From Chlorops oryzae (taxonomy: Eukaryota > Arthropoda > Insecta > Diptera > Chloropidae), in the NCBI GenBank assembly GCA_020466095.1, contig CM035806.1, positions 117,579,921-117,643,920 on the forward strand: a stretch of DNA of 64,000 nucleotides, written 5' to 3'. The position numbers and the translations under genes were made by a program. The notes below the pieces were generated by a model. The model was not told the origin of the DNA, did no database searches, and saw only the letters and a program-made list of their open reading frames with translations. The number at the start of each line of letters is the position of its first letter. Positions within the stretch are counted from its first letter, which is position 1. Positions 13,033-33,500 of the stretch are shown one piece after another.

Positions 13033-13797
13033 TGTTGTGAGTCTCTCCCAAACTCACATGTGGTCACCTTAAACCGAAAGCAAAAGGCAGTGACCTGCAT
13101 TTATGAATTTCACTTCAAGGTGATTCCAAGCTACTCAAAAACACTGTCCAGCGTAAATTGCTGACAAATGCAAACATGCAGTTCGGCCGCTTGCAACAAC
13201 AACAACACCGGCACAGTATATGCCCGAATGACAAACATCAGCGCTGGCGCAGCGAATGCACAATTGCAATCCGATCGCTGGCAATAACAACAACAACACA
13301 CGTCAAGAGTTTTTATGTAAAAGCAACAACAACTACAAAAGAAGAACTAAGAACATCGGAATAGCTGTATGTAGTAACAATATGGCATGTTGGTGCAATT
13401 GCGGGGGAAGGTCGCGGTTAAGCTTATGCAATATGTTCGAGAAGAATCGACGACGATCGCGGACGATGGGAATATTCGATATTGCAAGATCAGCAATATT
13501 GATCTATATAAACGGAGCTTCGATGACTGGAACGGGACTTCTGCGAGCGTACTCACCAAAGGGCCACGACGGAGAAGTTAATAGTCAAGCAATAGGGATA
13601 TTTGTATTTGAAAGTATAGGATTCATTTTTTTAAATAAAGGATTAAAACCTAATTTTTGGTGTCTTTTATTTGATAAAGGAAATACGGGGACTATTATAC
13701 GCTCGACATTGTCTGAGCGCTTGGTACCCTACGTTGTAAGTTAGTGACATTGGTGCGCTCGACACAGTTTGAGCGCTGTGCACACTATACTACAACA
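13033..13797 (+). repeat. 5' LTR of the Gypsy-PTP element
   Basis: Starts TGTTGTGAGTCTCTCCC and ends ACTATACTACAACA. It matches the 3' LTR along all 765 bp apart from four visible base differences. A long open frame (13256-13744) lies inside but is simply shared LTR sequence, not a gene I can support. Confidence 0.95.
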
Positions 13798-13801
13798 TTT
13801 A

Positions 13802-13819
13802 TGGCGCAGCCGGTATTCG
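13802..13819 (+). promoter_or_regulatory. tRNA primer-binding site
   Basis: TGGCGCAGCCGGTAT begins four bases after the 5' LTR. TGG at this place is the complement of the CCA end of a tRNA. The sequence resembles the serine-tRNA-type sites of the 17.6/297 group of Gypsy elements, from memory; the exact tRNA is not proven. Confidence 0.7.
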
Positions 13820-13912
13820 ACTGACTTTCAGTTGGATCGAAATCAGTTCTCTAAAAGTTTTTTTTTAAATTATTGATCGTTGTGCGGTTTAATTTATGAC
13901 GCTATTCAGCTA

Positions 13913-14169
13913 AATTGGGGCTGTGACAGTCTTAAACAGTAATTAGTTATTACCAAACTTGCAGGAAAGCTCGTCAAATTGAACTGCATTAGCGACTATA
14001 ATTTTTAAGCAAAGTTTATATCGACAAGGTTTGCTTGCCAATATAACTGAGCAAAAAGCTTGAAAGAATATTAAAATTTTATACCAAAAGTGTATATACA
14101 TGATCGGCTACGAAATATCGCCTTGAATTGGGGCTGTGACAGTCTTAAACAGTAATTAGTTATTACCAA
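13913..14169 (+). repeat. 44-bp direct repeat in the Gypsy 5' leader
   Basis: A 44-bp sequence starting AATTGGGGCTGTGACAG is found at 13913-13956 and again, apparently identical, at 14126-14169. Both copies lie between primer site and gag. They could be packaging or insulator-type sites, or a small duplication. Confidence 0.85.
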
Positions 14170-14351
14170 GACAAGCCGAATAAAAATTCGTAAGCAAGAT
14201 TGTATGGTAAAACGCTTGTAGAATATTTTTATTTTTGAAGAATACCAATACTTTCAAAATAAATATCCCTATAAAAAGTGAAAATAAGTATTTTTAAATA
14301 AATTATCAACGGTAGCTGTGCAACGAAGAATAAAGTATAGATTAACAAGCA

Positions 14352-14366
14352 TGATACAGGTGAGTA
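14352..14366 (+). promoter_or_regulatory. putative splice donor before gag
   Basis: ATGATACAG is followed by GTGAGTACA at 14360, a near-consensus 5' splice site 50 bases before the gag ATG. It could start a spliced subgenomic RNA for the 3' phosphatase region, as spliced env RNAs do in errantivirus-like Gypsy elements. No matching acceptor upstream of the PTP could be fixed. Confidence 0.4.
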
Positions 14367-14413
14367 CAAAAAACAATAATTTTTCATCTTGAGTCCTATT
14401 TTGCAAAGTACAC

Positions 14414-16231
14414 ATGGAAAAAGAAATAGATATACTTAAGGATAGATTGAAGGTATTCGAGGACGATTCAGACACCATTTTACGCGAAGCAAGGGAGTTA
14501 GTTCACCAAGCAAATTTAAGCAAGGAAATTTTAAACTTAATTAAGGACCAAACCGTACTAGGGCAATTTTCGAAAATTAGCGAAGCAGCCTTTTTGATCA
14601 ACAAAGTTAAAGATACAGTAAGTGCATCGGAACAATCCACGAGCAAAAAAATTGAAGAACTAGAACTGACCATAAAAGCCCTGAAAAACAGTTGCAAATC
14701 GTTTAAAGATCAAATAGAAAATCAAAATAGTTTAATAGAAGAAGCAGAAAAAGAAAATCAGAATTTAAGAGAGACTTTAAATAAAGAAGTCGGTCCTACG
14801 GTTGCGGACACCATTCAACACAGCAAGAAAAAACTTAAAGAAAGTGATGAAGAAACTGCATTTTTAAAACAGGAATTAAGAAAATTAAAAAACACATTGA
14901 AAACAGTCTGTGTCCCCTCTCCGGTTTCAACTCCAAATCCTGCACGGAAAACTAGACTGGCAAACCAAAACGTTCAAATTGCCTTTACACCCACGGCACA
15001 GACTTCAAACCAATTTGTATTTCCACCCCCTCCAAAGACAACAACAACGACTCAACATATAATTCCAACGATCCAAACAAATAACACAACAATCGAAAGT
15101 ATTGAAAATTTGAGCGCTGCTCAGCCAACAACAAACATGACCACCAATATGCAGGTAGACGAATTGATGGGAAAAGTAAATAACCTCGTTCCATATTTTT
15201 CAGGCACTAACAATGCCGATTTATATCTAGAAGTTGATAGATTTGTTAATGGAATTGGATTATTGAAAAGCGTAGTAGGGAACAGCAATATAAACGACAT
15301 ACTTGGTTGCATAAAGAACAGACTAGCAGGCAAAGCTTACGAAATTGTCTCAAAGAGAATAATAAACAATCTGGATGAGTTAAATGACGTCATAAAATCA
15401 GAATTTTTGAAAAAACGAAGCTTAGAAACAATCAGATATGAAATTGCTTCCGCAAAGCAGCAGAGTACTGAAAAGGTTTCGGAGTTTGGTAGGAAGATAG
15501 AATCTTTATTGCGTGAAGCCGAAGAGCTTATTAGGGAATCGTGGAACCGTACTGAAGCAGTAGCATTGCTACACGACTACCAGAAATTAGGAAAAAATAA
15601 ATTTATTTTTGGTATTCAGGACCCCTTTTTACGAAACAGACTCGAGGGCGCAGAACATGAATCACTATTTACTCTTATAAAATTAGCGCAGACGACGGAA
15701 GAGCGACATGAGGAAAATAGTTAAATTGCATATTCTGATCATTTCATAAATAAACAAACCCCAGTAGTCATACATCAAGCTCGGTGTTCATTTTGTAACG
15801 TAGAAGGCCATACTTGGGATGTTTGCGTGCAAAGAAAGAATACGCCCTATTGCGGTAGTTGTGCTCAATATGGGCACACCACTAATGCGCAATGTAACGT
15901 AAAGAATACTCCCATACAAAATTGTGGTTTTTGCGGAAAAACGGGACACTCCGAAAAGAATTGCTATGCGAAAATTAAAAATTTATTCTGTAACGTCTGT
16001 CAGTTAAAGGGTCACGAAACAAATCCGTACTGCAGGCAGGGGCACAAAAACAAACAAGCTAATCAGCACAATTCACAAACGGGAAATAGCGATCGCAATA
16101 CTAATAACAATCGAAGCGCCCCAACAATGATTAAAACCATTCAATGTTTTAAATGCTCGCAACCGGGTCATATTGCAAGAAATTGTCCGAATAATCAGGG
16201 AAACCCCTCGCGGCCCGGTCTCGGCCATTAG
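14414..16231 (+). pseudogene. Gag polyprotein of the Gypsy-PTP element, one in-frame stop
   Basis: From the ATG at 14414 the first 436 residues hold a long coiled coil (residues 1-165, Lys/Glu/Leu-rich), a Thr/Pro-rich linker, and a capsid-like helical domain (VDELMGKVNNLVPYFSG through SLFTLIKLAQTTEERHEEN). A TAA at 15722-15724 stops the frame, but the same frame then continues with five CCHC zinc knuckles: CSFCNVEGHTWDVC, CGSCAQYGHTTNAQC, CGFCGKTGHSEKNC, CNVCQLKGHETNPYC and CFKCSQPGHIARNC. Five knuckles is many for a Gypsy Gag. The stop is either a recent mutation or a read-through site. Gag would form the particle and bind RNA. Confidence 0.85.
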
Positions 16232-16275
16232 ACCGGAATGCCAGCAGCAAACAAGAGTCTCTGAGGCCAATTCAA

Positions 16276-16491
16276 ATGAGAAATTCAGAAAAACCAATAT
16301 ATAAAGACGAATTAAATGAGCTAGATATAAATAAAATTTTTTTAGATGATGTTGACAAAAAAACGATCAGTATAAATTTAAATTGTAATAAATTAGAGAA
16401 AAAAAGAATAATGAGTTCAAGAATCTTAAGTAAAAAAGAACTCTCTCTCATTAAAGAAAAATCAAAAGCAAAAGCGAAGAGTGCATTTTAA
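16276..16491 (+). CDS. short Lys-rich frame between gag and protease
   Basis: A 71-residue frame, shifted against gag and overlapping the start of the protease frame by 11 bases. It is acidic then Lys-rich (KELSLIKEKSKAKAK) and has no domain I recognise. It may be the lost link of one continuous gag-pol frame, broken by small indels. Confidence 0.4.
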   Translation: MRNSEKPIYKDELNELDINKIFLDDVDKKTISINLNCNKLEKKRIMSSRILSKKELSLIKEKSKAKAKSAF

Positions 16492-17428
16492 CGAGAATGT
16501 GAGTTTTCATTTTTACGAGAGTTCAATGCCAATTGTAAATGCAGAATCAGAAAAAACGGTTGAAGATAAAAAGAGTAAAAACGAAGATAGAAGTCAATTT
16601 CGAAAATTATTTTTATCTTTTGTGTTACCTTTTTTAGCAGCCATAAGCGAAAAATTTTCTATTTTGCGCAATCAAACTTGGGAATGGCTAAAAGAACGAA
16701 AGAAGCACCCCTGTAGGAACCTGATTCGAAATAATCCCAAATCCTTTAATACACAATGTTCAGGCTTAGTGTCAGACGACGCGTTTATAGTATTTCCTAA
16801 TCGACAAGCTATAAACGATGAGGTAACTCTGTTAGTGGACACTGGAGCTGACACTAGTTTAATTAAATGGGAAGCGTTAAAAAATGTAAATAACATTTAT
16901 GAATCGGAAGTCAAGAGTTTAGTGGGAGCCTTCGGAGGCACCGTTAGGAGTAAAGGAATTATAGACATTGGTCATACAAATAATAAAGAGTTGAATTTTA
17001 AGTTTCACGTTTTACCAAAGGGTAGTAAAATTCCGGGAGATGGACTATTAGGCAGAGATGGGCTCTGGAATAAATCAGTAATAGATACCATAGATAAAGA
17101 AACTAAATTTTTCAAAAATGGCAAAGAAATTGCTTCACTTCCACTTGTTAGTTCCACTTATAGCAGTCGGGTTTGTACTATTAAACCAGTCACGATCCGT
17201 GCTAGGACAGCAAGGGCAGTAGAAATATGCGCAGAGAAATTTTCCGGAGAAATCGTTATACAAAAAAGGGAAATTATGCCTAACGTTTTCGTAGGAGGTA
17301 CAATTACGGAAATTTTAAAGGGAAAGGGCTATGTGCCAATGTTGAACGCAAATCACACGGATGTTCGAATAGAATCCAGTGAATTAGAATATGACTGTGG
17401 CACAGAATTTGGACGTTCCAAACATTAA
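16481..17428 (+). CDS. aspartic protease region of the Gypsy-PTP element
   Basis: 315 residues. The catalytic motif LLVDTGADTSLIKW lies at about residues 117-130, with the flap region after it and GDGLLGRDGLW at about 185-196, typical of retropepsins. A hydrophobic stretch (FRKLFLSFVLPFLAAI) lies at residues 40-56 and could touch membranes. The frame ends at 17428 and overlaps the reverse-transcriptase frame from 17391, a +1 offset. That could be a programmed shift or one missing base. The protease would process the Gag-Pol precursor. Confidence 0.8.
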   Translation: MHFNENVSFHFYESSMPIVNAESEKTVEDKKSKNEDRSQFRKLFLSFVLPFLAAISEKFSILRNQTWEWLKERKKHPCRNLIRNNPKSFNTQCSGLVSDDAFIVFPNRQAINDEVTLLVDTGADTSLIKWEALKNVNNIYESEVKSLVGAFGGTVRSKGIIDIGHTNNKELNFKFHVLPKGSKIPGDGLLGRDGLWNKSVIDTIDKETKFFKNGKEIASLPLVSSTYSSRVCTIKPVTIRARTARAVEICAEKFSGEIVIQKREIMPNVFVGGTITEILKGKGYVPMLNANHTDVRIESSELEYDCGTEFGRSKH

Positions 17429-18530
17429 TCAATTACAAGAAGGGTGTAATGAGAATAATCGTTTTAACCTTTTGATGAACGCAGTAAATTTAGATAAAAA
17501 TCTTAATAAAGATGAATTGCATTCCATAAAAGAAATATTTAGAGATTATACCGATATATTCCTTTTGCAAGGAGATAATCTGTCATACACTACGGTATTA
17601 AGTCATGAAATTCCTACCGAACCGGGAAAAGCCCCAATTAATAGTAGACAGTACAGGTTGCCGGAACATCATAAAGCAGAAATAAATTCGCAGGTTAACA
17701 AAATGTTGACAGACAACATAATTAAGCCAAGTAAATCGCCTTGGAATTCGCCCATAATTTTAGTTCCAAAAAGGACAGGAAAAGATGGCGAGAAAAAATG
17801 GAGATTAGTAGTTGATTTTCGAAAATTGAACGAAATTACACTTAAACAAGTTTTCCCTATTCCAAGAATAGATGAAATTCTTGACCAATTGGGATGTAGC
17901 CGTTATTTTTCCACTTTGGATTTAGCTAGCGGATATCATCAAGTACTGGTCGATGAACAGGATAGACAGAAAACGGCCTTCAGCACTGGCATGGGCCATT
18001 TCGAATTCATAAGAATGCCTTTCGGTCTAACGGGGGCACCAGCCACATTCCAAAGAATTATGAATAGTATTTTGACGGGTCTTCAGGGAATTGATTGCTT
18101 TGTGTACCTTGACGACATTGTTATCTACGCCAGGAATTTAGAAGAACACGATATTCGTTTAAGAAATGTTTTTGACGTCTTAAGGGAAAACAATCTGAAA
18201 CTTCAAACAGAAAAATGCCAATTCCTGAAGAAAGAAGTAGTTTACTTAGGGCACAAATGTTCAGAATCAGGTGTTTTACCTGATCCAGCAAAAGTAGAAT
18301 CCGTTAAAAATATTAAACCACCCAAAAATATTAAAGAACTGCAGTCATTTCTCGGCTTAATCAATTATTATAGAAAGTTTATACCCGAGGCAGCCAAAAT
18401 ATCCTTACCATTAACAAAATTATTAAGAAAAGAAGAGAAATTTATTTGGAATAAGCATTGCCAAGACGCAATGGAGAAATTGAAAGAAGCAGTGACAAGC
18501 CCCCCTATACTACAATATCCTGATTTTTAA
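17391..18530 (+). CDS. reverse transcriptase of the Gypsy-PTP element
   Basis: About 379 residues. The Ty3/Gypsy RT signature is complete: SPWNSPIILVPKR, KWRLVVDFRKLNEIT, FSTLDLASGYHQV, TAFSTGMGHFEFIRMPFGL, APATFQRIMN and the catalytic FVYLDDIVIYA. The thumb and connection follow (LGHKCSESGVLPDPAKVE, LGLINYYRKFIP). A TAA at 18528-18530 sits just before the RNase H motif LTTDASNEALGAV, which continues in the same frame. That single stop would separate RT from RNase H and integrase unless read through. Confidence 0.92.
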   Translation: MTVAQNLDVPNINQLQEGCNENNRFNLLMNAVNLDKNLNKDELHSIKEIFRDYTDIFLLQGDNLSYTTVLSHEIPTEPGKAPINSRQYRLPEHHKAEINSQVNKMLTDNIIKPSKSPWNSPIILVPKRTGKDGEKKWRLVVDFRKLNEITLKQVFPIPRIDEILDQLGCSRYFSTLDLASGYHQVLVDEQDRQKTAFSTGMGHFEFIRMPFGLTGAPATFQRIMNSILTGLQGIDCFVYLDDIVIYARNLEEHDIRLRNVFDVLRENNLKLQTEKCQFLKKEVVYLGHKCSESGVLPDPAKVESVKNIKPPKNIKELQSFLGLINYYRKFIPEAAKISLPLTKLLRKEEKFIWNKHCQDAMEKLKEAVTSPPILQYPDF

Positions 18531-20132
18531 AAGTTATTTATTCTTACAACAGACGCCAGCAACGAAGCATTAGGTGCAGTATTGTCGCAAGGTGAGCCAG
18601 GACAGGATCTGCCAATATACTATGCGAGTAGGGCACTTAGTGCAACCGAAAAACGATATTCCACGATAGAAAAAGAATTTTTGGCAATAGTTTGGGCAGT
18701 TAAAAATTTTAGAACATACCTATTAGGCAAACATTTCAAAATTTATACCGACCATAAACCACTTAAAGGCATAGCGAATTTAAAATACCAAGATACCAGA
18801 TTGGGCCGTTTCCGATTGAAACTTTTAGAATACGATTTTGAAATCCTTTACAAACCCGGAAAAAATAACCTTAATGCAGATGCACTAAGTAGACTCCCAA
18901 ATTCAGAAACACCAATAGCAGTAGTAACCAGATCAATTTCAAAAACAAAACCAGAAGAATTCGATACGTCAACAACTGTAAGCCCGAGTGAGAATTATAA
19001 CGAAGATACGGCAGTTGTGCTAACGGATCCAACAGAAATACAAAAAATTATAAAAATTTTCCATGACAGTCCAATAGGAGGCCATAAAGGGTTTTTGAAA
19101 ACATACTTTCGTGTCAGAAAACAATTTAAATGGGAAGGCATGCAGAAGCACATAAAAGATTACATAGACTCATGCCAACTTTGCCAAAAGAATAAAAGTT
19201 CCCGCGTAGAAAAATTGCCTATGACTATAACCAATACTCCCCACAGACCGTTTGATAAAGTATTCATGGATATAGTTGGTCCGCTTCCGCTCTCATCAAG
19301 AGGGAATAAATACATACTTACATTTTTAGACGATTTTTCTAAATATTTCATTTGCGTGGCCATACCAGATGCCGAAGCATCAACTGTGGCAAGAGCCTTT
19401 TTTAATGAAATAATTGCCAAATTTAATATCCCTAAGGTATTAATAACAGACAATGGTACAAATTTCACTTCAGTTTTATTTCAAGAAGTTTGCAAAATTC
19501 TTGGCATTAAAAAATCGCAAACTTCGCCATACCACCCGCAAGCCAATGGTGCTCTTGAAAGAAGTCACCGGCCCCTTGCGGAAGTCCTTCGAAATTTTGT
19601 CAATGAGGATGGCACGAATTGGGATGAATGGTTGCACCACGCTATGCACGTGCATAACAACACAATACATTCATCCACAAAACAAACACCCAGTAGAACA
19701 CTTTTCGGTTTCGATTTCGAAATTTCAATAAAATTAAAGCATAAACCTGGTCCTTTGTATAATCCCGACGATTATAGCAAAATTTTGAAGTACCAAATTC
19801 AAAGAAGCTATGAAATTGTTAGACAAAATCAAAAATCTGCAAAAGAAAAGTCAAAGATATATTATGACAAAAATTCAAAAGAAAGAAAGTTCAAAATAGG
19901 AGATAAAGTTTGGCTAAAAAATCAAAACAGACAAAATACATTTTCACCCATTTGGGAGGGACCATTTGAAATAATTTCCATACCTTCTCCGGCAAATGTA
20001 CGATTACTTATTAAGGGAAAAAAGAAAACCTACCACAAAAATTTGATAAAATTAAACCATAGTAAAAAGGAGAAAACGTATATCGTAGAACATGTAACAA
20101 CACCAAGGGAAAAGTGTAATCATGAGAGATTA
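18531..20132 (+). CDS. RNase H and integrase of the Gypsy-PTP element
   Basis: After the stop at 18528 the same frame stays open to 20768. RNase H: FILTTDASNEALGAVLS, YSTIEKEFLAIVWAV, YTDHKPL and NADALSRL. Integrase: an HHCC finger (HDSPIGGHKG to CQLCQKNK), the catalytic Asp in VFMDIVGPLPL, Asp in LITDNGTNF and Glu in NGALERSHR, then a C-terminal module (FKIGDKVWL, WEGPFEI). An IN C-terminus of this kind normally ends pol. Here the frame goes straight on into the tyrosine phosphatase domain. Confidence 0.92.
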
Positions 20133-23100
20133 ATTTCAAACGATGAAAAGGTTGCGGAAGAATATTTCACTCTCCCAGAACTAGTGGACCAAGCAAACAT
20201 AAAAAATTTCCTAAAAAACAAACCAAAAAACAGATATTCCAATGTCCCCTGTCTTGATCACAGTAGGGTGAAACTATCTAACAGACATAAGCATGACTAC
20301 ATTCACGCCAATTATGTTGATGGGTTTTTTAGAAAAAAAGAATACATTGCAACACAGGGTCCACTTAAAAATACCCTAAACGATTTTTGGCAAATGATTT
20401 GGGAACAAAACTGTGTTAATATAACCATGCTAACGAAAGTCCTTGAACATGAGCAGGAAAAATGTTACCAATATTGGGGAAAGAGAAGAAATGACATAAT
20501 TAAAACAGAAAACTTCAATGTTAAAACTTTAGACAGAATTGTGAACAGAAATAGTGTTAAATCCCAAATAGAATTGAAAAATCTGAAAACAAAACAATCA
20601 AGAATCATCAATCATTGGCAATATACAAGTTGGCCCGATAACGGCACACCAAATACATATGCTCTACTAAACTTCTGGTTACAGATAAAAGCACAGCAAA
20701 AAATCTCTGAAAAGAAAAATAAATATTCAACAAGTAAGAAAGCTAAAGTCGGTCAAGCCCGACTTTGAAATACCCAGCGTCCCGACATTATGAGCGCACT
20801 ATGTTTTGCTTCTCTATTTGTGGGCGTGGCAGTGGGAGGGCAACATAAATTATTTCCCTACACCTTTCATTCGCCTTGGTGAACCTATGTTGCGAATTTG
20901 AAGCTTCTACGCCTTTTACTTCGGAAGTTACGAAAAATCTTCATTTGTGGGCGTGGCAGTGGGCGGGCCATATAAAATTTTTTCCTACACCTTTCATTCG
21001 CCTTGGTGAACCTATGTTGCGAATTTAAAGCTTCGACGCCTTTTACTTCGGAAGTTACGAAAAATCTTGATTTGTGGGCGTGGCAGTGGGAGGGCAACAT
21101 AAATTATTTCCCTTCACCTTCCATTCGCCTTGGTGAACCTATGTTGCGAATTTGAAGCTTCTACGCCTTTTACTTCGGAAGTTACGAAAAATCTTCATTT
21201 GTGGGCGTGGCAGTGGGCGGGCCGCATAAAATTTTTTCCTACACCTTTCATTCGCCTTGGTGAACCTATGTTGCGAATTTCAAGCTTCTACGCCTTTTAC
21301 TTCGGAAGTTACGAAAAATCTTTGTTTGTGGGCGTGGCAGTGGGCGGGCCACAAAAAATTTTTTCCTACACCTTTCATTCGCCTTGGTGAACCTATGGTG
21401 CGAATTCGAAGCTTCTACGCCTTTTACTTCGGAAGTTACGAAAAATCTTCATTTGTGGGCGTGGCAGTGGGCGGGCCATAAAACAAATTTTCGTACACCT
21501 TTCATTCGCCTTGGTGAACCTATGTTGTGAATTTGAAGCTTCTATGACTTTTACTTCGGAAGTTACGAAAATTCTCTATTTGTGGGCGTGGCAGTGGGCG
21601 GGCTACATAAATTTTTTTCCTACACCTTTCATTTGCCTTGATCAACCTATGCTGCGAATTTGAAGCTTCTACGCCTTTTACTTCACAAGTTACGATAAGC
21701 CCTTATTTTTGGGCTTATTTGTGGGCGTGGCTCGAGGAGGGCGGCGTCCATTTTTTGCCAGTATATGTCCCTTTTCGTAGTTTACCAGCACACCAAATAT
21801 CAATGGAATGTGTTGAGTGGTTCGCAAGTTACAAGCATTTTATTGAAAACACAATAAATTCATTTGTGGGCGTGGCAGTGGGCGGATGTCTCCCATTTTT
21901 ACTTAGGATCATACTCGTACCCCGATATACATGTGTGCCAAATTTCGACTTCATTGGTTCAGCCGTTTCGGAGGAGATCCGACCACGGACGGACGGACAG
22001 ACGGACAGACGGTCAGACGGACGGACGGACAGACGGACATGTCTAAATCAATTCAGTTTTTGATCCTGATCATTTCTATATAAATTTTTCTATATCTCCG
22101 GAGCTTAATTCTCCCTGTTACAAGATTTGCACAAAACTAATATACCCCGCTTACGCTGGGTATAAAAATGGTCATACATTGTAGCGCAGGCATCGGCCGA
22201 ACCGGCACACTGATTGCGCTGGACATAGCCATTGACACTTTAAGAGCAGGTCTGAAATACAACTGTAGCGGAACGAACAGATCTTCAATAATTTTCAAAT
22301 AAAGACAAAAACAGACCACGTTGTAAATTGTACTTCCGGTTACACTTTTATTAGGTTTGCGGTTTATTACAGATTGTAGCAGTTACAACGGCGGTTGGTG
22401 AGCGACTCACCTCAAAAACAAAAGAATGACTCGAATTTTAACGAACTCACAATTAATTCATTCGGCTATTTACATACATATGTGAGCAAAGCAACAAAAG
22501 AGAATTTAAGAAAAGAGTTACAGAGATCAATTGCATATAACAAAAGTTGCGAATGACACAGGCAGTGGTTTCCCAAACATACCGGCCCCCTGAACTATTG
22601 TTCAGCACAGGGGAGCACGGCGATTCTCGTTACAGGGCGTTTGTATGTACCGCGACTGGTTCTGACTGTGACCACACGCACTAGGTTGTCAGCTCCTGAG
22701 GCTATTTCTTCGACTCGTCCCATTAACCATTTTGACGGGGGTAAATGAGGTTCCTTCAATATGACTATTTGGCCCACTTGTAAGTTCGGTTGAGCATGAT
22801 GCCATTTAGAACGTTGTTGAAGAGAAGTAAGGTACTCGGCTTGCCAACGTTTCCAAAATCCTTGAACCTTGGCTTGAAGTAACCGCCACCGATGAAGAAG
22901 ATTCGGTTTCTGCTCAAGTAGTGATGGCTCAGGTATACTTGTATAAGGACCACCAATTAAAAGATGCGCTGGCGTCACGGGATCGAGTTGATTATCACTT
23001 TTGAGCATAGTGGGCGGAATTCAAGACCGCTTCAATTTGCGTTAGAAACGGTTGCATATCTCTTCATATGTTAGCACATTACTTCCCATAACGCGTCGAA

Positions 23101-26100
23101 GATGGATATTAACGGAGCGTACCCCAGATTCCCACAATCCTCCAAAATGTGGCGCTGAGGGGGTATGAAATGCCAATTTATACCATCTTGTGTGAGCATA
23201 GATGCGATTTCCGAATTATGAGACGTTGAGATAGCCTGAATTTTTGCAAGTCATCTAGAGAACGTGTTTGCGCCGCAGAAAGGTTGTGCCATTATCAGAA
23301 TAAAGGTCGCTCGGTTTTCCTCGGCGTGAGGAAAGTGAGGAAGTCGTCCCGTGCTCGTGAGTGCCCCTAAGTCTCGAGAAAATGCAGTCATTTGCATATG
23401 ACGAAATATTGCATCTCTGCTTTGCTTAAATTCGGACGCTGACAATGTTATGAAATAAACGTTGTCTCCAAGGGGATGATCAAATGTTTTATTGTAAATT
23501 TTTATAAAGCGAAAACAGTATGCCACAATTCGCACAAGTCGGTCCCAAGAAGAAATTTTGTTCACCAGTAGTTCAATGACGTCATCTGAGGCATTCACGC
23601 AGAGCGTTTGGTCACGTTCGACGCGCGTTTCAACAATCACCTCCGGATTAGTAGTTACATAAGGGTTGACTGCTGCGATTGGCCATTGTTCCTTGGGAAA
23701 TTGAAGCCATGGAGGACCGTTCCACCAGAGCCGAAATTCAAGAAGTTTAGATGGAAGAAGTCCTCGTGAGGCACAATCAGCCGGATTGTCCCCCGATCTG
23801 ACATGATGCCAACACTCGTTCGGGCAGACATCCAAAATTTCGGCGGTGCGGTTGCACACGAACGTTTTCCATTTCCTTGGTGGGGATGATAGCCAATGTA
23901 GTACGATCTGTGAATCCGACCAACAATACAGCCCAGCGACAGGGATAGAGAGCGATGATTTTACTAACGTTACAAGTCTCGATAACAATACCGCCGCGTT
24001 GAGCTCCAACCTTGGAATACTTAAAGGTTTAAGTGGAGCGACACGAGTTTTTGCTGTCACGACCCTTATTTCGAACGTGTCACCCACTTTGACTCGACTG
24101 TACACGACTGCAGCACATGCAATGCTGGATGCGTCGGCAAAGGCATGCAGCTCGATAGCCTCGAACGGTGTAGAAATGTATCTCGGAATACGAAGGTGCG
24201 ATAAAGTAGTCAAATTCTGTATGTATAGCGCCCAGCGCTCGCAAATGCTCTCAGACAGCTCATCGTCCCAGCCTGTCACTTGTAACCACGTCTCTTGAAA
24301 TAAAGTTTTAAACAAGATGACTACTGGAGCAATGATGCCAATCGGATCGTACACTTTACTCATTTCGGATAGAATTATTCGCTTGGTCGGTCGTTGATGA
24401 ATGTTGACATCATTCACCTTTAACGAAAGTTCATCAGTACCCGGATTCCAAGTTAAGCCCAAAATGCTCACTACACAATGTTTTGATAATAGCTCGATAG
24501 GTTCCAAAGCACAATGTTCACTGGGCAAAGTGTCGAGTAACGGCCAGCAATTTGACGACCACTTCCGAAGTTTGAAGTTTGCCTCCTCCAACAACTTAAT
24601 GATTTCATCTTTCAGCATAATCAGTTCTTCTACTGAATCGCATCCTGTTAGAATGTCGTCTACATAGGCATCACGGCGAAGAACACCCGCAGCAAGTGGA
24701 TAACGCGATTGGTACTCGTCTGACAGTTGTTGAAGTACCCGTACAGCTAAAAAAGGCGAACACGCTAACCCATAAGTGACTGTTAGCAATCGAAAATGCT
24801 GAATTGGCTTTGTTTCATCAGTACGCCACACGATACGCTGGAAATTAGTATGCTCCTTATTCACTTTTATGCCTCGAAACATTTTCGCAATATCAGCTGA
24901 GAACACATAGCGGTGTTGTCGAAAACGAATCGATACTCCAAATATATCGCGTTGTATCGGTAGACCGATGTGTAATCGATCGTTTAAAGACACTCCGGTT
25001 GCATCCCTAGCAGAGCCATCAAAGACTACCCTACACTTGGTCGTCGAACTGCTCGGCTTCAGGACTGCGTGATGTGGTAGATAGAAGACCTTGTTCGTGG
25101 CAATGTCAAGTTTATGATCGGGAATCAGCTCCATGTGATTTAATGATTCGTAGTCGCTCATGAACTCGGTGTATTGCTGCTTTAAATTCCCATCTTCCCG
25201 CAACCGTCTCTCGAGATGCCGTAGCCGCCTTAACGCTTGAGGTAATGTAGAATGAATAGGCGGGGAGGGCTTTTTGAATGGGTATTTCACAATATACGTA
25301 CCGTCTTGATGGCGTGTATGAGTTTGAATGAAGTGCAGCTCCGTTGGGTCTTGTTCGTTAAATTTTGCCTCTGTTTGAATTGTATCCATCTCCATCAGCG
25401 CCCGAACCATGGTATCGATATCTGCCAATGCGTGATTCGAAAACTCAATTGATGCGTTGCCATTTGGAACTCCACACGACCCTGCGATAACCCAGCCAAA
25501 AATTGTATTGAGCGCTACAGGTAAATCTGCTCCAAATTGATGACATTCTCCCGTATAAATGCTCCACAATTGATCACTCCCAATGAGGACATCAATTTGT
25601 CCTGGCACACCGAACGTTGGATCTGCTAGGTCCAACTTAAGAATTTCTGCCCAGCATGGCGATGAGCACTCAACTGAATGAATAGGAATATTCGACGTGA
25701 TTTTCTGCATGATGAGTAGATGTACTGATCGTTGGCTTTGCGAGACTCTTGAGTGAAGATTAATGTGGACTTGTCCACGCGAAATGCCAGCAGTAGTTCC
25801 TGCCAGCCCAGCAATAGTAACGCGAGCATGCGATCTATTCGCACCAATACGCTGAATGAATGCTTCCGTGACTAGCGACGTCGTAGATCCGGTATCCAAT
25901 AACACTCGACAATCAACAAAACTGCCGAATTTGTCTTTAACTTTAACTCGAAGTGTTGGTAGCAATGTTTGTGTACCAACCGAATAGGAAATTTGATTTG
26001 AATGATTTACGATAGCGGGTGGTGCAATAGTTAGCTCACGTACTGTACCAGCATCCGACTGCGCAATGCTCTGTGTTGTCGGTTTATTTGTTGTACGTGT

Positions 26101-27897
26101 TTTATGTAAAAGCGTATGATGCCTTTTACTACAATGACGACAACGAAATTTCGATGTACATTTGTCAACATGGTGACTCGAATTCAAGCAATTAAAGCAC
26201 AAATTATTCTCCTTTACCAGCACACACTTTGCGTCGAAATCTAACACTTTAAATTTCTCACAGTTAGAGAGCGCATGTTGCTCATTGCAATGCTTGCAGT
26301 GTTTGTTTGTCTGCTTTGTAGCCTCTTCGTTTTTAGATTCAGTAGTAGCTATATTTGTAACTGCCGCATTGCGTGAGGAGGATGCGCGGGGTGATTGATA
26401 GCTCTCTAACGCGTCACAACGGAGAGAGAGAAATTTCAAGAAACTCTCAAACGATGGCTCAGCCTGAGTGTCGTGCTTCTCTGCCCACGCTTGTTTTGTG
26501 TCGTTATCCACTTTTTTCAGCAGAATATGTACCAGCCACGGATCACGTGATTCGCATTTGAGTGCCTTTAATCCGCGAATCGCCTCATCTGCACCGTCGG
26601 CTATTTTACGTAGAGTCACGACATTAGAAGATGTGAGCGATGGTAACGAAAAATATGATTGAACGAATGAACGAATGATCAACTGTTTGCGATCGTACCG
26701 TTGGTTGAGGCGGTTCCATGCTTCTGGATAGTTGTCTTCCGTTAATGCGAGATGTTTGATGAGCCCCAGTGCCTCGCCTATTTGGTAGGATTTCAGGTAG
26801 TGGAATTTTTGCGTATTGCTCAAGCCTGGTTTACTTCCGATGGCTGTCATGTAGAGATCATGAAATGAGGGCCACTCTTGATAATTGCCAGAAAAGGGTG
26901 GGATTTTTAACTTCTCAAACGGCACTTCGGCATGAATTGTAGTGCTCGACACAGCTCGAAGGAAGTCCGCCTGCTGCGTAGCAAGCTGATTTAACGTTTC
27001 GGAAGTATTGAGAGCTTCAGGAGAGGCTGAGGTGGGTGAAGCGGATTTAAGGGCCTTTGAGAGCAAATTATGCGTTTCGTAATATTGGGTCTCACACACT
27101 GCTTCGACCTCCGAGGGGTCCACGAATCCTTCTGTATTGATATAGCCGTATAACCGTTTTGTCACATCCACAAATTCAGTATAGATATCCTCCAATTTCT
27201 CCAGGCGTTTGCTAATTGTCTCCGAAGATAGCTCACCTTCCAAGTTCCTTGCCGAGGTTAAAGCTCTCTCGAATGCGTTGGCCGACCATTTGAGTTTTGT
27301 ATTTAATTTGTCCATATCGCGATAGTAATGTTTTAACGAGCAAAAGTATACTAACGTGACGTTAAAGATCTCCGCGTTCCTAATTCGAATTTAAATACAC
27401 AACCCGACCAGTTCAATTCGGGATCCGGCTCGAAGGACCAAAAATTCTTTATGTAGCGGAACGAACAGATCTTCAATAATTTTCAAATAAAGACAAAAAC
27501 ATACCACGTTGTAAATTGTACTTCCGGTTACACTTTTATTAAGTTTGCGGTTTATTACAGATTGTAGCAGTTACAACGGCGGTTGGTGAGCGACTCACCT
27601 CAAAAACAAAAGAATGACTCGAATTTTAACGAACTCACAATTAATTCATTCGGCTATTTACATACATATGTGAGCAAAGCAACAAAAGAGAATTTAAGAA
27701 AAGAGTTACAGAGATCAATTGCATATAACAAAAGTTGCGAATGACACAGGCAGTGGTTCCCAAACAACAACATTCAAAAAATAATAAATAAAATTCGCCA
27801 AAAGCGAGCGCATGCCGTCAATTGCATCCAACACTACAACTTTTTAGTAAAAGCATTGTCCATTCATTACCTGCCAACCGATAAAAATCAAGAATAA
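20133..27897 (+). CDS. protein tyrosine phosphatase domain fused to pol (split by two insertions)
   Basis: Coding pieces: 20133-20729, 22165-22263 and 27772-27897, about 270 residues, the usual size of one classical PTP domain. Visible motifs: KPKNRYSNV (KNRY pTyr loop, near 20226-20240), DYIHANYVDGF, YIATQGPL, FWQMIWE, HWQYTSWPDNGTP (WPD loop with the general acid, 20631-20639), and the catalytic P-loop HCSAGIGRTG (22177-22206) with its Cys and Arg. The last piece carries IRQKRAHAV and ends at TAA 27895-27897. It is in frame with integrase, no stop between. The Helentron entered between two A bases; the BEL left an ACAAC duplication. Both junctions keep the phosphatase frame. Origin could be a host or viral-type PTP gene. 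Confidence 0.9.
20730..22164 (-). mobile_element. DINE-1/Helentron-like non-autonomous element (copy 1)
   Basis: Read on the minus strand it begins TATACCCAGCGTAAGCGGGG, contains a GTCY/GACR microsatellite (about 21990-22040), seven tandem units of about 127 bp (20815-21700), a sub-terminal inverted TACCCAGCGT, a hairpin (GTCGG...CCGAC at about 20747-20766) and ends CTTACTTGT. This layout matches DINE-1/Helentron elements of flies. Insertion is between two A (TT on the other strand) with no duplication, as expected for Helentrons. It splits the PTP domain just before the catalytic loop. Confidence 0.8.
20815..21715. repeat. about 127-bp tandem repeats inside the Helentron
   Basis: The phrase GTGGGCGTGGCAGTGGG recurs about every 127 bp (near 20820, 20946, 21073, 21200, 21327, 21454, 21581), each followed by a conserved CTTTCATTCGCCTTGGTGAA. 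The units are very alike. The same unit occurs in the copies at 43.4-43.9 kb and 51.4-51.8 kb. Confidence 0.9.
22264..22579 (-). repeat. 3' LTR of the BEL element
   Basis: 316 bp, near-identical to 27452-27766. On the coding (minus) strand it follows a purine-rich tract at about 22580-22595. Confidence 0.92.
22595..23250 (-). pseudogene. BEL/Pao integrase core end and C-terminal domain
   Basis: From about 23225 the minus strand encodes the end of the integrase core (WHFIPPSAPHFGGLWESGVRS, with the catalytic Glu), then a stop and frameshift near 23045-23010. A 137-residue frame from 23008 follows, with the BEL C-terminal domain (TPAHLLIGGPYTSIPEP, RWRLLQAKVQGFWKRWQAEYL, LVRVVTVRTSRGTYKRPV), of DUF5641 type. 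The first part of the integrase is missing; see the frame at 23251. Confidence 0.85.
23251..27315 (-). CDS. BEL/Pao Gag-Pol polyprotein (gag, protease, RT, RNase H)
   Basis: An uninterrupted frame of 1354 residues from the ATG at 27315. Gag: residues 1-330 (FEKLKIPPFSGNYQEWPSF). Zinc-binding cluster at about 335-395 (CKHCNEQHALSNC, CFNCLNSSHHVDKC, CRHCSKRHH). Retropepsin: CRVLLDTGSTTSLV near 465. RT: VFYLPHHAVLKP, CRVVFDGSARD, FSADIAKMFRGI and the YVDD in RRDAYVDDILTG. RNase H: ELHAFADASSIACAAVVY, YCWSDSQIVLHWL, GDNPADCASRGLLP. The end runs over an internal deletion: integrase YSDNGT follows in another frame near 23300-23270. Only the integrase N-terminus seems lost. Confidence 0.92.
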   Translation of the reverse strand: MDKLNTKLKWSANAFERALTSARNLEGELSSETISKRLEKLEDIYTEFVDVTKRLYGYINTEGFVDPSEVEAVCETQYYETHNLLSKALKSASPTSASPEALNTSETLNQLATQQADFLRAVSSTTIHAEVPFEKLKIPPFSGNYQEWPSFHDLYMTAIGSKPGLSNTQKFHYLKSYQIGEALGLIKHLALTEDNYPEAWNRLNQRYDRKQLIIRSFVQSYFSLPSLTSSNVVTLRKIADGADEAIRGLKALKCESRDPWLVHILLKKVDNDTKQAWAEKHDTQAEPSFESFLKFLSLRCDALESYQSPRASSSRNAAVTNIATTESKNEEATKQTNKHCKHCNEQHALSNCEKFKVLDFDAKCVLVKENNLCFNCLNSSHHVDKCTSKFRCRHCSKRHHTLLHKTRTTNKPTTQSIAQSDAGTVRELTIAPPAIVNHSNQISYSVGTQTLLPTLRVKVKDKFGSFVDCRVLLDTGSTTSLVTEAFIQRIGANRSHARVTIAGLAGTTAGISRGQVHINLHSRVSQSQRSVHLLIMQKITSNIPIHSVECSSPCWAEILKLDLADPTFGVPGQIDVLIGSDQLWSIYTGECHQFGADLPVALNTIFGWVIAGSCGVPNGNASIEFSNHALADIDTMVRALMEMDTIQTEAKFNEQDPTELHFIQTHTRHQDGTYIVKYPFKKPSPPIHSTLPQALRRLRHLERRLREDGNLKQQYTEFMSDYESLNHMELIPDHKLDIATNKVFYLPHHAVLKPSSSTTKCRVVFDGSARDATGVSLNDRLHIGLPIQRDIFGVSIRFRQHRYVFSADIAKMFRGIKVNKEHTNFQRIVWRTDETKPIQHFRLLTVTYGLACSPFLAVRVLQQLSDEYQSRYPLAAGVLRRDAYVDDILTGCDSVEELIMLKDEIIKLLEEANFKLRKWSSNCWPLLDTLPSEHCALEPIELLSKHCVVSILGLTWNPGTDELSLKVNDVNIHQRPTKRIILSEMSKVYDPIGIIAPVVILFKTLFQETWLQVTGWDDELSESICERWALYIQNLTTLSHLRIPRYISTPFEAIELHAFADASSIACAAVVYSRVKVGDTFEIRVVTAKTRVAPLKPLSIPRLELNAAVLLSRLVTLVKSSLSIPVAGLYCWSDSQIVLHWLSSPPRKWKTFVCNRTAEILDVCPNECWHHVRSGDNPADCASRGLLPSKLLEFRLWWNGPPWLQFPKEQWPIAAVNPYVTTNPEVIVETRVERDQTLCVNASDDVIELLVNKISSWDRLVRIVAYCFRFIKIYNKTFDHPLGDNVYFITLSASEFKQSRDAIFRHMQMTAFSRDLGALTSTGRLPHFPHAEENRATFILIMAQPFCGANTFSR
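27452..27766 (-). repeat. 5' LTR of the BEL element
   Basis: 315 bp. On the minus strand it starts TGTTTGGGAACC and ends CGCTACA; the sequence after it (TGGTCCTTCGAGCCGG, about 27445-27430) is the likely primer-binding site. Confidence 0.92.
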
Positions 27898-29650
27898 AAC
27901 GATGAAGTAAAAGTAACGAAAAGCTAGAAAATGATAAATTTTCCCTTTTCACAAACTGAACAGTTTTTAAAATATTAAACATACGAGTTTTAAAGTTTGG
28001 TAAAGAGCACCATGCCTTTGAAAGCATCCAGGAGGGACTCAGGTTACATAATCTGTATTTTAATTCTTTTTTAGGTTAACCAAGAAGTCGGAACAAAAAA
28101 CAAAGCGATACCGAGCCGGTAGAGTAAGCAAAGCAAATTACAGTGGTGAGTATAAACAACCATATACAGATATTTACAAAATGTTTGTATATACTCAGAA
28201 TACGTTCAATTCAAGACAATACCTTGCAAATATAGGTATTTTTGCAGTTAGATAAAATCATTTACTACTTATTTGAAAAAGAAGAGAAGAAAAAAAGAAA
28301 TCGTAAAAATTAAAAATTCGGAAGAAGATGAAATGAATTCATATAAAAAATATATACTTATACAAAAAAAAAAATTTAATGAAACAAAAAATTATAACCT
28401 ATATGAACAAAAAAACCCACTCATTTAAACCTAAAATCAGTTTTATCACTATTAATCAAAACATCATTCAATAAAAAATCGAACCATGTTAAAAATTTTA
28501 AAATAAAAAGAATGGAAGAAAAATCTTTATATACTTATATATTCGAATAAAAATTATATACATATATATTCAAATGAAAAAGAAAAAAGTATATAAATAT
28601 ACAAGTATTTTAAGCCCATTCACCAAAAATAAGGGAATGTTAAAACACAAAATTATTAAGAAAAAGAAAAGCAAAATATATATGTAAAATGGAAAACAGA
28701 ATAAGATAAAGAAAAAAAAAAAAATAAAAAATATATATATATATATAAAATAAAAAAATAAAAAAATTCGAGAAAAGGTAAATTACAAATTTTTATCAAT
28801 TTTTAATTACGGTGACGGGTACATCATAAGAAAACAATATATGTATTGTTAACTATGAAAACAAAAGGTAGAAAAAAAAAAAAATTATATTCACAGACAA
28901 AAACCTAAAAGTATAGGTACCTAACAAAACTTTTGTTTTTGAAACTCTTATAAACAAAGTACAATTTAAAAAAAATAATGAAAAAAAAGAATTTGAAATT
29001 GAACGACAAAAAGTGAATTTAAGAAAAAATAAACAATAAATAAAGTATACATGATTGTTAAACAAGCTGCAAGAAAATGAATTCAAAACATTATATAGAA
29101 AATAAGAAAATATACTATGAAATAAATTTTATATATTAGATTTAAGCCCAAAGAATGGTCTGGATACGCACTATCGAAACAGCGGGAGTATCGTTTAAAC
29201 AACAGCAGTGGTATACATCGAACACGCATCAACATAAATTTAACGATTCATCATTTGCCTAAAAACAACGTCTTCGCCAGCATTAGGCAAACATCTAAAT
29301 TTCTTATCAACCATCGCCGTAAACGTTTCAACATTGTCACCTTTGAATCATGAACCAACCCAGCAAGAGTAACGATGCAAACTGTATACATCATATGTTA
29401 ACATTTTCGTTCATCTAAATCATCAGCAACTAATACGCGACTTCTTTAAGAAGGGGAGGGACGTATATGTGGTCACAACATCAGCAGCTCGTTTCAGCAC
29501 AAGAACGTTAGAGTAAACATCGCAGCAAACACTCTCATCTTCCAAGAACGGGATACGTCAACTGAATGTTAATTTAAAACCGCAGCAGCCGCAATGTCAA
29601 AAGCGCATCCAATTCTGAGGTTTTCGATCATCGCTATGGAGCGATTTTCT
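27898..29650 (+). other. long AT-rich 3' region of the Gypsy-PTP element
   Basis: About 1.75 kb after the PTP stop. 28150-29150 is extremely A-rich on the plus strand with no coding potential I trust. A TTTTTTAG at 28068-28075 and a GTGAGT at 28147 look like splice sites bounding a short exon. From 29150 base composition becomes normal. A second polypurine run (AAGAAGGGGAGGGA, 29449-29462) precedes the real polypurine tract by about 200 bp. No env-like frame is present. Confidence 0.6.
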
Positions 29651-29665
29651 TCAAAGGGGGAGGGA
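29651..29665 (+). promoter_or_regulatory. polypurine tract
   Basis: AAAGGGGGAGGGA lies immediately before the 3' LTR, the normal primer site for plus-strand DNA synthesis. Confidence 0.85.
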
Positions 29666-30430
29666 TGTTGTGAGTCTCTCCCAAACTCACATGTGGTCAC
29701 CTTAAACCGAAAGCAAAAAGCAGTGACCTGCATTTATGAATTTCACTTCAAGGTGATTCCAAGCTACTCAAAAACACTGTCCAGCGTAAATTGCTGACAA
29801 ATGCAAACATGCAGTTCGGCCGCTTGCAACAACAACAACACCGGCACAGTATATGCCCGAATGACAAACATCAGCGCTGGCGCAGCGAATGCACAATTGC
29901 AATCCGATCGCTGGCAATAACAACAACAACACACGTCAAGAGTTTTTATGTAAAAGCAACAACAACTACAAAAGAAGAACTAAGAACATCGGAATAGCTG
30001 TATGTAGTAACAATATGGCATGTTGGTGCAATTGCGGGGGAAGGTCGCGGTTAAGCTTATGCAATATGTTCGAGAAGAATCGACGACGATCGCGGACCAT
30101 GGGAATATTCGATATTGCAAGATCAGCAATATTGATCTATATAAACGGAGCTTCGATGACTGGAACGGGACTTCTGCGAGCGTACTCACCAAAGGGCCAC
30201 GACGGAGAAGTTAATAGTCAAGCAATAGGGATATTTGTATTTGAAAGTATAGGATTCATTTTATTAAATAAAGGATTAAAACCTAATTTTTGGTGTCTTT
30301 TATTTGATAAAGGAAATACGGGGACTATTATACGCTCGCCATTGTCTGAGCGCTTGGTACCCTACGTTGTAAGTTAGTGACATTGGTGCGCTCGACACAG
30401 TTTGAGCGCTGTGCACACTATACTACAACA
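29666..30430 (+). repeat. 3' LTR of the Gypsy-PTP element
   Basis: 765 bp, matching the 5' LTR with four visible base differences (near 13103/29719, 13462/30095, 13631/30264 and 13707/30340). Followed by AGCT and the rest of the Tc1 transposase. Confidence 0.95.
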
Positions 30431-30538
30431 AGCTTTCAAACTACGGGAATTGTGACCTCAAAGCCACGTTCTGGTCGGCCAAAAATATTGTCCGAACGCG
30501 AATCGCGAGGAGTCATTAAACTGGTGAAAAACAACATG
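30431..30538 (+). pseudogene. Tc1-like transposase, second half of N-terminal domain
   Basis: Past the target duplication the Tc1 frame resumes: FQTTGIVTSKPRSGRPKILSE, then ESRGVIKLVKNN. SKPRSGRP is the typical GRPR-type linker between the two helix-turn-helix units. It stops at about 30538, where the 3.2-kb palindrome begins; the catalytic part does not reappear in the window. Confidence 0.8.
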
Positions 30539-33500
30539 TCTGTGAACTTAGCATTACCACTTGTAAAGTTTAGATTAAAAACTAGCTATTAATTTGTAGC
30601 TAATTTGTTGTAAATTTGTTGTAGAAAAAAAAATTTGTAGCTCTTTTGTTTTAGAAAATAACCCCTGGTAATGCTAACTTCATAGTGAAGTTAGCATTAC
30701 CACCCTCAAATTTCTAAATTTTTGGATTCAAAATTAGTTAATAATTTGTAGCTAATTTGTTGTAAATTTGTTGTAGAAAAAGAAAATTTGTAACTCTTTT
30801 ATTTTAGAAAATAACCCCTGGTAATGCTAACTTCATAGTGAAGTTAGCATTACCACCCTCAAAATTCTAAATTTTTGGATTCAAAATTAGTTAATATTTT
30901 GTAGCTAATTTGTTGTAAATTTGTTGTAGAAAAAGAAAATTTGTAAGTCTTTTATTTTAGAAAATATCCCCTGGTAATGCTAACTTCATAGTGAAGGAAT
31001 CAGAAACAGTCAAATTGATAATTAATCCACCCTTAATGTATGCATGGAAAATTATTTTGAATGTTTCCGACACTGCAAGTCATGCATTTTTCATATGCAT
31101 ACTTTTAGGCCAAAATTCTGGAAATTCGCAATCACTGACAATAGCGGTATTCACTATCCAGTGCATTTGTTAAGGCAGGTGTAGGGATGCTCGTTGTTGG
31201 AAAATCATCGATATTGCAAATATTGTGAGCCTTACAAGGATTGCTGATTCTAAACAGAAATATAACTTCGATGTTGCCAAAAATGTATGCTATTGCTCAT
31301 TTACTCCGAGAATTTTATAACTGCAAAAATTATGCCAGAACAACGATGTTTTAACGTGGAACATCGATAATAGTCGAATATCGATCATAATCAAGCACCT
31401 TTTTGAGCGGGACATGCACTTTTTTGCGCCAAAATAACGTCTTCGACGATGGGTGCACGATTTGAACAAATCGTCGACAACTCTAGATGAATAAAATTTG
31501 CTGTTTTTTTCGGAGCTAATATATGAAATTTCTTTTTCGTCACCAAAAGCGCTGTATGCGACTTCCCCGCTCAATGCCGCCTATACACTTTTTGCCAAAC
31601 GCAAGACAACGCTGCCAAAAATCGGATTACGGATTGAGTAGAGATCCTTGTCTACGAAAGATAGCTGGAATCATTGGTCCATAAAGGGGACTTTTTTGCT
31701 TCCTTGCAGGTTGTTGAGAGGGGGGCGGGAGGGGCGCAAACAGGGCAGTTTCCCCGGGCCCGCCGTGAAGGGGCCCTCAACTGTCAAAAGAAAATTTTCC
31801 GAAAATTTCCGAAACCGACTGACTGATTACATTATAACTACTCCAAGTGACTCTCGGAAAACGTATACAACATATGGGGCATTCCATTTAATCGTGGACA
31901 CTTTCGGATGTGACATGCAGTGTTCCCTCTAAGCTGCGCGACTGCGCAATTGCGCACGATTGTTTACTAAGTTTTTGAAAGTTGCGCAGCCTTACTTGTA
32001 TTCTGAGCACAAATTTCAAAATGGCAAAAAGTCAAAAATTCTCAAATATTAGTAAAGGCTGTAGTACATGAGATGAAAAAAGCCACATTCATATGTAGCT
32101 CTGACATCATTTTGACGTCAGAAAGTTTTTATGGCTACATATAGTGTATTCAAAAACTTCCTGACGTCAAAATGATGTCAGAGCTACATATGAATGTGGC
32201 TTTTTTCATCTCATGTACTACAGCCTTTACTAATATTTGAGAATTTTTGACTTTTTGCCATTTTGAAATTTGTGCGCAGAATACAAGTAAGGCTGCGCAA
32301 CTTTCAAAAACTTAGTAAACAATCGTGCGCAATTGCGCAGTCGCGCAGCTTAGAGGGAACACTGCATGTCACTTCCGAAAGTGTCCACGGTTAAATGGAA
32401 TGCCCCATATGTTGTATACGTTTTCCGAGAGTCACTTGGAGTAGGTATAATGTAATCAGTCAGTCGGTTTCGGAAATTTTCGGAAAATTTTCTTTTGACA
32501 GTTGAGGGCCCCTTCACGGCGGGCCCGGGGAAACTGCCCTGTTTGCGCCCCTCCCGCCCCCTCTCAACAACCTGCAAGGAAGCAAAAAAGTCCCCTTTAT
32601 GGACCAATGATTCCAGCTATCTTTCGTAGACAAGGATCTCTACTCAATCCGTAATCCGATTTTTGGCGGCGTTGTCTTGCGTTTGGCAAAAAGTGTATAG
32701 GCGGCATTGAGCGGGGAAGTCGCATACAGCGCTTTTGGTGACGAAAAAGAAATTTCATATATTAGCTCCGAAAAAACAGCAAATTTTATTCATCTAGAGT
32801 TGTCGACGATTTGTTCAAATCGTGCACCCATCGTCGAAGACGTTATTTTGGCGCAAAAAAGTGCATGTCCCGCTCAAAAAGGTGCTTGATTATGATCGAT
32901 ATTCGACTATTATCGATGTTCCACGTTAAAACATCGTTGTTCTGGCATAATTTTTGCAGTTATAAAATTCTCGGAGTAAATGAGCAATAGCATACATTTT
33001 TGGCAACATCGAAGTTATATTTCTGTTTAGAATCAGCAATCCTTGTAAGGCTCACAATATTTGCAATATCGATGATTTTCCAACAACGAGCATCCCTACA
33101 CCTGCCTTAACAAATGCACTGGATAGTGAATACCGCTATTGTCAGTGATTGCGAGTTTCCAGAATTTTGGCCTAAAAGTATGCATATGAAAAATGCATGA
33201 CTTGCAGTGTCGGAAACATTCAAAATAATTTTCCATGCATACATTAAGGGTGGATTAATTATCAATTTGACTGTTTCTGATTCCTTCACTATGAAGTTAG
33301 CATTACCAGGGGATATTTTCTAAAATAAAAGAGTTACAAATTTTCTTTTTCTACAACAAATTTACAACAAATTAGCTACAAAATATTAACTAATTTTGAA
33401 TCCAAAAATTTAGAATTTTGAGGGTGGTAATGCTAACTTCACTATGAAGTTAGCATTACCAGGGGTTATTTTCTAAAATAAAAGAGTTACAAATTTTCTT

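Follow-up and report, generated by a model that had tools for sequence, protein, structure and literature searches.

A Ty3/Gypsy retrotransposon lineage in Chlorops oryzae whose pol frame ends in a classical protein tyrosine phosphatase

A 64-kb stretch of the Chlorops oryzae genome (contig CM035806.1), which we call the window and to which all coordinates without a locus prefix refer, contains at 13033–30430 a Ty3/Gypsy long terminal repeat (LTR) retrotransposon whose pol frame continues past the integrase into a protein tyrosine phosphatase (PTP). Our analyses show that a classical PTP is now a Pol domain in a large lineage that has diversified and was active recently, and of which the window holds one broken copy. 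As the last Pol domain the PTP would accompany reverse transcriptase and integrase everywhere, also into particles, and we give about even chances to the prediction that it is packaged together with Pol and would dephosphorylate tyrosine-phosphorylated host signalling proteins.

The window copy has paired LTRs, a 4-bp target-site duplication (TSD), the domain order protease, reverse transcriptase, RNase H and integrase, and an integrase of the H2C2 and GPY/F type, and is by these features a Ty3/Gypsy element. A single open frame (18531–20768) holds RNase H, H2C2, the integrase core, a linker and positions 1–165 of the 234 in the PF00102 phosphatase profile (E 4.3e-48). The initial annotation had the integrase frame running unbroken into the PTP and, after two inserts, reaching the HCSAGIGRTG motif and a natural stop codon, with which our coordinates and Pfam matches agree; the span that it gave, 18531–27897, falls well inside the element as delimited here. 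The copy is broken upstream too, with a stop in gag before the zinc knuckles, protease and reverse transcriptase in different frames, and an in-frame stop that splits reverse transcriptase from RNase H; a Pfam scan of the element did not recognise the N-terminal part of gag. In another copy, L036, the PTP matches positions 1–231 of the profile (E 5.3e-73), and a chance fusion is excluded because of these E-values and the existence of other copies.

The 442-Mb assembly (1044 contigs) was searched with the PF00102 profile and the best 150 of 596 candidates were scored. There are at least 151 matches in the genome; five host-like rows, which lack the integrase motif and are 31–39% identical to the window PTP, were removed from the 150 listed to leave at least 145 non-host rows, a set that does not include the window copy, since it is split. 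Within these, 129 are stop-free across the domain and 31 lie inside frames that run for 1,500 residues or more with no stop. Sixty loci were checked individually, comprising the five host PTPs and 55 element loci, and the integrase WxGP motif shares one frame with the PTP in 51 of the latter; the other four are L061, with an altered motif, and three with a stop ahead of it. Sorted by eye on identity to the window PTP, the copies form ten subfamilies, F1 at 96–100% (including the window copy), F2 at 68–71% and F3 to F10 at 48–60%, with L101, L110 and L116 as an additional group. When a 745-residue query spanning RNase H to PTP was used, 51 of the best 60 of 7805 candidates, the window included, matched to residue 720 or beyond, eight ended at residues 573–691 and one at 516. 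A tick PTP query matched both host and element rows, which were not entered in the trees described below.

In the aligned subfamily representatives the integrase ends alike in a KGKEKTFHKNLLK-like stretch, and a linker that differs in length connects this to the PTP. It had been proposed that copies lacking the PTP, or joined to it differently, would mark the fusion as a one-off accident; the junction is constant among the PTP-bearing copies examined, whereas 8 of 20 picked relatives have no PTP. The accident is rejected by the genome copies, the ten subfamilies and their separate LTR pairs and TSDs. Outside this genome, 29 of the 30 closest integrase relatives finish within about 15 residues of the integrase end point and one, P0074, before it; PF00102 is among the precomputed domains of none of the 120 listed outside relatives. 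Absence from the protein searches is weak evidence because these spanned limited length ranges, outside which a fused Pol of about 1,600 residues falls. Viral contigs and phage records, scanned and searched respectively for relatives, yielded none. The integrase–PTP fusion does occur in a second source, P0166, a metagenomic protein of 362 residues from an ENA contig of 1312 bp, which starts with the integrase tail seen in the elements and passes through a linker to a complete PTP (PF00102 E 4.7e-75, profile positions 1–233 of 234) and whose AlphaFold2 model has a mean pLDDT of 75, higher across most of the PTP.

Judged by its full-length PF00102 match and its HCx5R, WPD and KNRY motifs, the domain is a classical, phosphotyrosine-specific PTP; the dual-specificity phosphatase family profile matched only below its cut-off. 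The baculovirus phosphatase is of the RNA-phosphatase type, which the RNA-capping-like role once suggested for this domain would fit; given the two profile results a reading of that type is not favoured, and the capping idea gains nothing from a classical PTP. Residues were aligned in 52 of the 55 element loci, leaving out L012, L019 and L065, which have little or no frame upstream, and copies were picked by top profile score. The P-loop Cys and Arg and the Asp and Trp of WPD are each present in 52/52 copies, the P-loop His in 51/52 and the KNRY Tyr in 45/52 (Phe in all six F10 copies, Asp in one); the Pro of WPD is Ala in F9. The Q-loop Gln is retained in 37/52 and replaced in the other 15, by His in F1 (8), Thr in F7 (5) and Leu in F8 (2). 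The claim in the initial annotation that all catalytic motifs are intact is hence upheld for Cys, Arg and the WPD Asp, but not for the Q-loop Gln, which is His in F1. Ten representatives share one residue at 42 of the 262 alignment columns.

Pooled pN/pS within nine subfamilies is 0.18–0.55 for the PTP and 0.13–0.43 for the integrase part, values that the choice of high-scoring copies lowers somewhat. Between representatives, at which synonymous sites are mostly saturated, dN is 0.23–0.64 for the PTP and 0.04–0.20 for the integrase part. Amino-acid distances in the PTP average 2.7 times those in the integrase part and are correlated with them (Mantel r 0.68, 1 of 9999 shuffles as high), a combination that fits a host-facing protein. 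With copies at the same junction and pN/pS well below 1, the proposal that a Gypsy element captured a PTP and kept it under selection has stood, as has the view that the element moved with its cargo: besides the LTRs and TSD of the window copy (Table 1), three further F1 copies have LTR pairs differing at 0/844, 3/839 and 1/861 aligned bases and their own 4-bp TSDs, CGTC, TGTT and ATAA. In five other F1 copies tried, an LTR pair was not established within the pieces examined; L063 (F1) has a 496-bp repeat match whose status as an LTR pair is unproven.

In a tree of integrases with 30 outside relatives, one branch (SH-aLRT 97) separates the PTP-bearing integrases from these relatives. The history that we propose is that the PTP was captured once, then inherited, exchanged between subfamilies at least once, and sometimes lost. 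The integrases of F4 (L027) and F5 (L030) are close (pS 0.51) and their phosphatases distant (pS 0.86), for which reason the PTP module has probably been exchanged at least once. Twenty loci with odd frame lengths or no listed PTP match were picked from the integrase search; in eight, pol ends after the integrase with no PTP match in the following 1.5 kb or so. One pair of these, L099 and L100, clusters with F1/F2 (84/80), which suggests loss of the PTP, and the other six form a separate, unplaced group. L112 keeps the linker, interrupted there, and L118 has PTP fragments only.

A first PTP tree (69 rows) placed the elements and P0166 together (94) and did not resolve the nearest outside group. 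In a second tree of 46 rows, from which second receptor domains, long-branched rows and surplus subfamily copies had been removed, the elements and P0166 form one group (99/95) beside PTPs of Glyptapanteles, Cotesia, Cydia and metagenomic origin (98/95), with a SEC14-PTPN9 protein next out (89/86) and P0166 paired with F9 (96/78). The Glyptapanteles and Cotesia rows, which we take to be bracovirus genes, form a group of few rows beside, not around, the element PTPs. A LAR-type receptor PTP as the donor, suggested by the best PDB and pairwise scores, which go to LAR-type chains, gains no support from the 46-row tree, in which the element PTPs do not group with LAR-type domains.

Downstream of the PTP, copies differ in the genes that they carry. 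A baculovirus-F-type env (PF12259, E 1.5e-7 to 2.3e-6) follows the PTP in L119 (1147–2523; Baculo_F E 2.5e-7) and L005 (3205–3693), and also follows PTP fragments in L118 and a Ulp1-type gene in L103. Among the matches listed, at least 46 of the 145 PTP rows are followed on their own strand by an env match no more than 4 kb away; no row has env on its own strand upstream, nor on the opposite strand downstream. A Ulp1-type protease open reading frame (PF02902, E 6.5e-11 to 9.6e-14, with His, Asp and Cys aligned) is found after the PTP in L120 (F1) and L007 (F3), and directly after pol and before env in L103, which has no PTP. The L103 frame gave 138 matches from 760 candidates in its own genome, in several diverged groups; with this query, no Ulp1 match lies within 4 kb of any PTP row among the matches listed. 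Seen from the env side, 46 of the 150 listed rows have a PTP within 4 kb upstream, 23 have a Ulp1 match and 81 have neither. The 3' regions vary even within F1, L120 having Ulp1, L119 env and a Ulp1 fragment, and the window copy neither gene (tblastn queries taken from the env and Ulp1 genes of other copies, best E 0.50). Env 3' of pol, an errantivirus-type trait, is accordingly present in part of the copies and absent from the window copy.

As to function, Pol would be translated in fused form and enter the particle, with a possible cut by the element protease in the variable linker, and the action that we favour is suppression of tyrosine-phosphate signalling by a particle-borne enzyme, directed perhaps at host immune or cell-contact signalling. 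Since ten diverged lineages have all retained the catalytic Cys, Arg and Asp, the elements likely use the PTP on host-cell signalling, and its fast yet constrained evolution, together with a possible kinship to bracovirus PTPs, points to host proteins as targets. One study reports that a bracovirus PTP expressed in Drosophila hemocytes suppresses phenoloxidase activity and dampens host immunity (PMC9866809).

Several observations weigh against this proposal. Because copies were picked by top profile score, residue counts and selection measures are skewed towards intact copies. Three of the ten subfamilies, that of the window among them, have another residue in place of the Q-loop Gln, and the phosphatases of these may, to judge from the residues, be slow enzymes or traps. 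Just 9 of the 31 long-frame PTP rows have an env match within 4 kb downstream, among the matches listed. Relatives without a PTP persist in the same genome (8 of the 20 picked loci), some with long open pol frames; when these eight are added to the integrase tree, the split between own-genome and outside rows is 60/60, the PTP-bearing rows are not one group, and their distribution requires three changes. Lastly, the neighbourhood with wasp PTPs stands on a single tree with long-branched rows removed, and two quicker trees did not resolve it.

A role within the producing cell, in which the PTP would act on the element's own proteins or assembly, for example by dephosphorylating Gag or integrase, seems to us rather unlikely, although the PTP sits in the Pol frame beside integrase in the subfamilies seen and is retained by L038, a copy whose LTRs are three mismatches apart and whose 3' region has no env. 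Divergence about 2.7-fold faster than that of integrase would be unusual in a partner of conserved element proteins, and the PTP's neighbours in one tree are wasp PTPs belonging to a family in which the bracovirus member so far tested acts on host immunity. Improbable, too, is that some subfamilies use the domain chiefly to trap phosphotyrosine by binding, its catalysis being weak. Inactive bracovirus PTPs have been proposed to act as traps (PMC3573978), and the loss of the Q-loop Gln from F1, F7 and F8 would agree with such a role, but every aligned copy has the nucleophilic Cys, the Arg and the Asp that serves as general acid, and most have the Gln itself. That the PTP is a functionless passenger captured by chance is very hard to credit: PTP-less relatives with long open pol frames do manage without it, yet open frames and catalytic residues are kept down to about 50% identity over ten subfamilies, with pN/pS below 1. 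Insertion of an element into a host PTP gene, or a faulty assembly join, was conceivable when the window copy was the only one known and is now rejected as having next to no probability by the genome copies, the 51 of 55 loci with one frame, P0166 in a second data set and the low identity of the host PTPs.

The elements described here resemble the errantivirus type of Ty3/Gypsy (Metaviridae) in their LTRs, gag, protease–reverse transcriptase–RNase H–integrase order, H2C2 and GPY/F-type integrase and 4-bp TSDs, and, in part of the copies, in a baculovirus-F-type env in which GLI is preceded by a basic stretch; they differ in a Pol that extends in frame into a classical PTP and, in some copies, in a downstream Ulp1-type protease gene. 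Added enzyme domains are considered to be rarely fixed in LTR elements (PMC9289625). Orchid Ty3/Gypsy elements with an AlkB RNA demethylase likewise form a lineage retaining a captured modification-erasing enzyme, but in a plant host and as an additional open reading frame, whereas here the host is likely an insect, the fusion is in frame with Pol and the enzyme is a protein phosphatase (PMC9289625). Bdelloid rotifer LTR elements have also added varied enzymes to gag and pol, a GDSL esterase or DEDDy exonuclease, but in ORF3, and the accessible text names no phosphatase (PMC5408684). Bracovirus PTPs are, like those of the elements, single-domain PTPs in an insect viral setting (PMC3573978, PMC9866809); they are wasp-virus genes of about 300 residues and, unlike element PTPs, are described without a joined integrase (PMC3573978). 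Ginger1 transposons have a domain that removes protein modifiers, Ulp1 or OTU, C-terminal to a Gypsy-type integrase, but they are DNA transposons, for which the accessible text gives no phosphatase, and Ulp1 is a separate open reading frame in the present elements (PMC2836005). Our literature search, with most subscription papers and all repeat databases outside its coverage, found no tyrosine phosphatase in an LTR element.

We tentatively suggest, at somewhat less than even chances, that these elements belong to an insect endogenous retrovirus clade in which modification erasers (a packaged, Pol-borne PTP and a Ulp1-type SUMO protease gene) and env are swappable and combined differently per lineage, and in which the immediate ancestor of the PTP was common to the immune-suppressing PTPs of wasp bracoviruses, mobile elements possibly being the vehicle. 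If true, insects would have in this clade an equivalent of the complex retroviruses. The fusion brings three questions directly within reach of experiment: do retroelements carry a signalling enzyme along with the proteins that replicate them, which pathway of the host is the target, and do the virulence phosphatases of bracoviruses stem from the same source as those of retroelements?

Table 1. Features of the window element and its inserts, with the Ulp1-type open reading frames of three other copies
Feature	Position	Strand	Remarks
5' LTR, 765 bp	13033–13797	+	4 mismatches/765 to 3' LTR; TSD AGCT outside
Putative primer-binding site TGGCGCAGCCGG	13802–13813	+	Begins four bases past 5' LTR
gag frame	14414–15724	+	Closed by in-frame TAA
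gag zinc-knuckle portion	15725–16231	+	Frame unchanged after TAA; Pfam zf-CCHC E 4e-07
Aspartic protease frame (RVP)	16430–17428	+	Pfam E 3.8e-05; frame differs from reverse transcriptase here
Reverse transcriptase frame	17388–18530	+	RVT_1 E 2.3e-36; in-frame stop 18528–18530
RNase H, integrase (H2C2, DDE core, WEGPFEI) and linker	18531–20216	+	Pfam RT_RNaseH 1.4e-34, H2C2 1.2e-19, rve 2.7e-19
PTP N-terminal part (KNRY, YIATQGPL, WPD)	20217–20733 (end approximate)	+	Integrase frame; end by match to copy L036
Non-coding insert with 127-bp tandem repeat	20734–22163 (edges within about 10 bases)		Edges are breaks in match to copy L036
PTP middle part	22164–22263	+	P-loop HCSAGIGRTG at 22177–22206
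Pao-type LTR element insert	22264–27766	-	LTRs 22264–22579 and 27452–27766, 99% identical; TSD ACAAC
PTP C-terminal part	27767–27897	+	Natural TAA 27895–27897; DNA 98% match to copy L036
A-rich 3' region	27898–29652	+	No env or Ulp1 match (tblastn)
Polypurine tract	29653–29665	+	Directly before 3' LTR
3' LTR	29666–30430	+	AGCT flanks element at both ends
Ulp1-type open reading frames	L103 740–1588; L120 1053–1883; L007 2818–3693

The Pao-type insert has a minus-strand pol frame (23251–27390) matching Peptidase_A17 (Pao) at E 6.5e-46. Inserts with the 127-bp tandem repeat and similar flanks recur in the window on both strands (20734–22163, 38669–44021 and 50950–51919), and a match to the insert is also present within the 3' region of copy L119. 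Elsewhere in the window, a Pfam scan of 5000–5932 gave no family, and a Mariner/Mos1-type transposase frame on the minus strand (3821–4882) is flanked by plus-strand frames that by eye resemble a non-LTR retrotransposon. About 100 bases from the 3' LTR lies a very long inverted repeat (30527–33753), with 983-nt arms that are 99% complementary and with inner inverted repeats.
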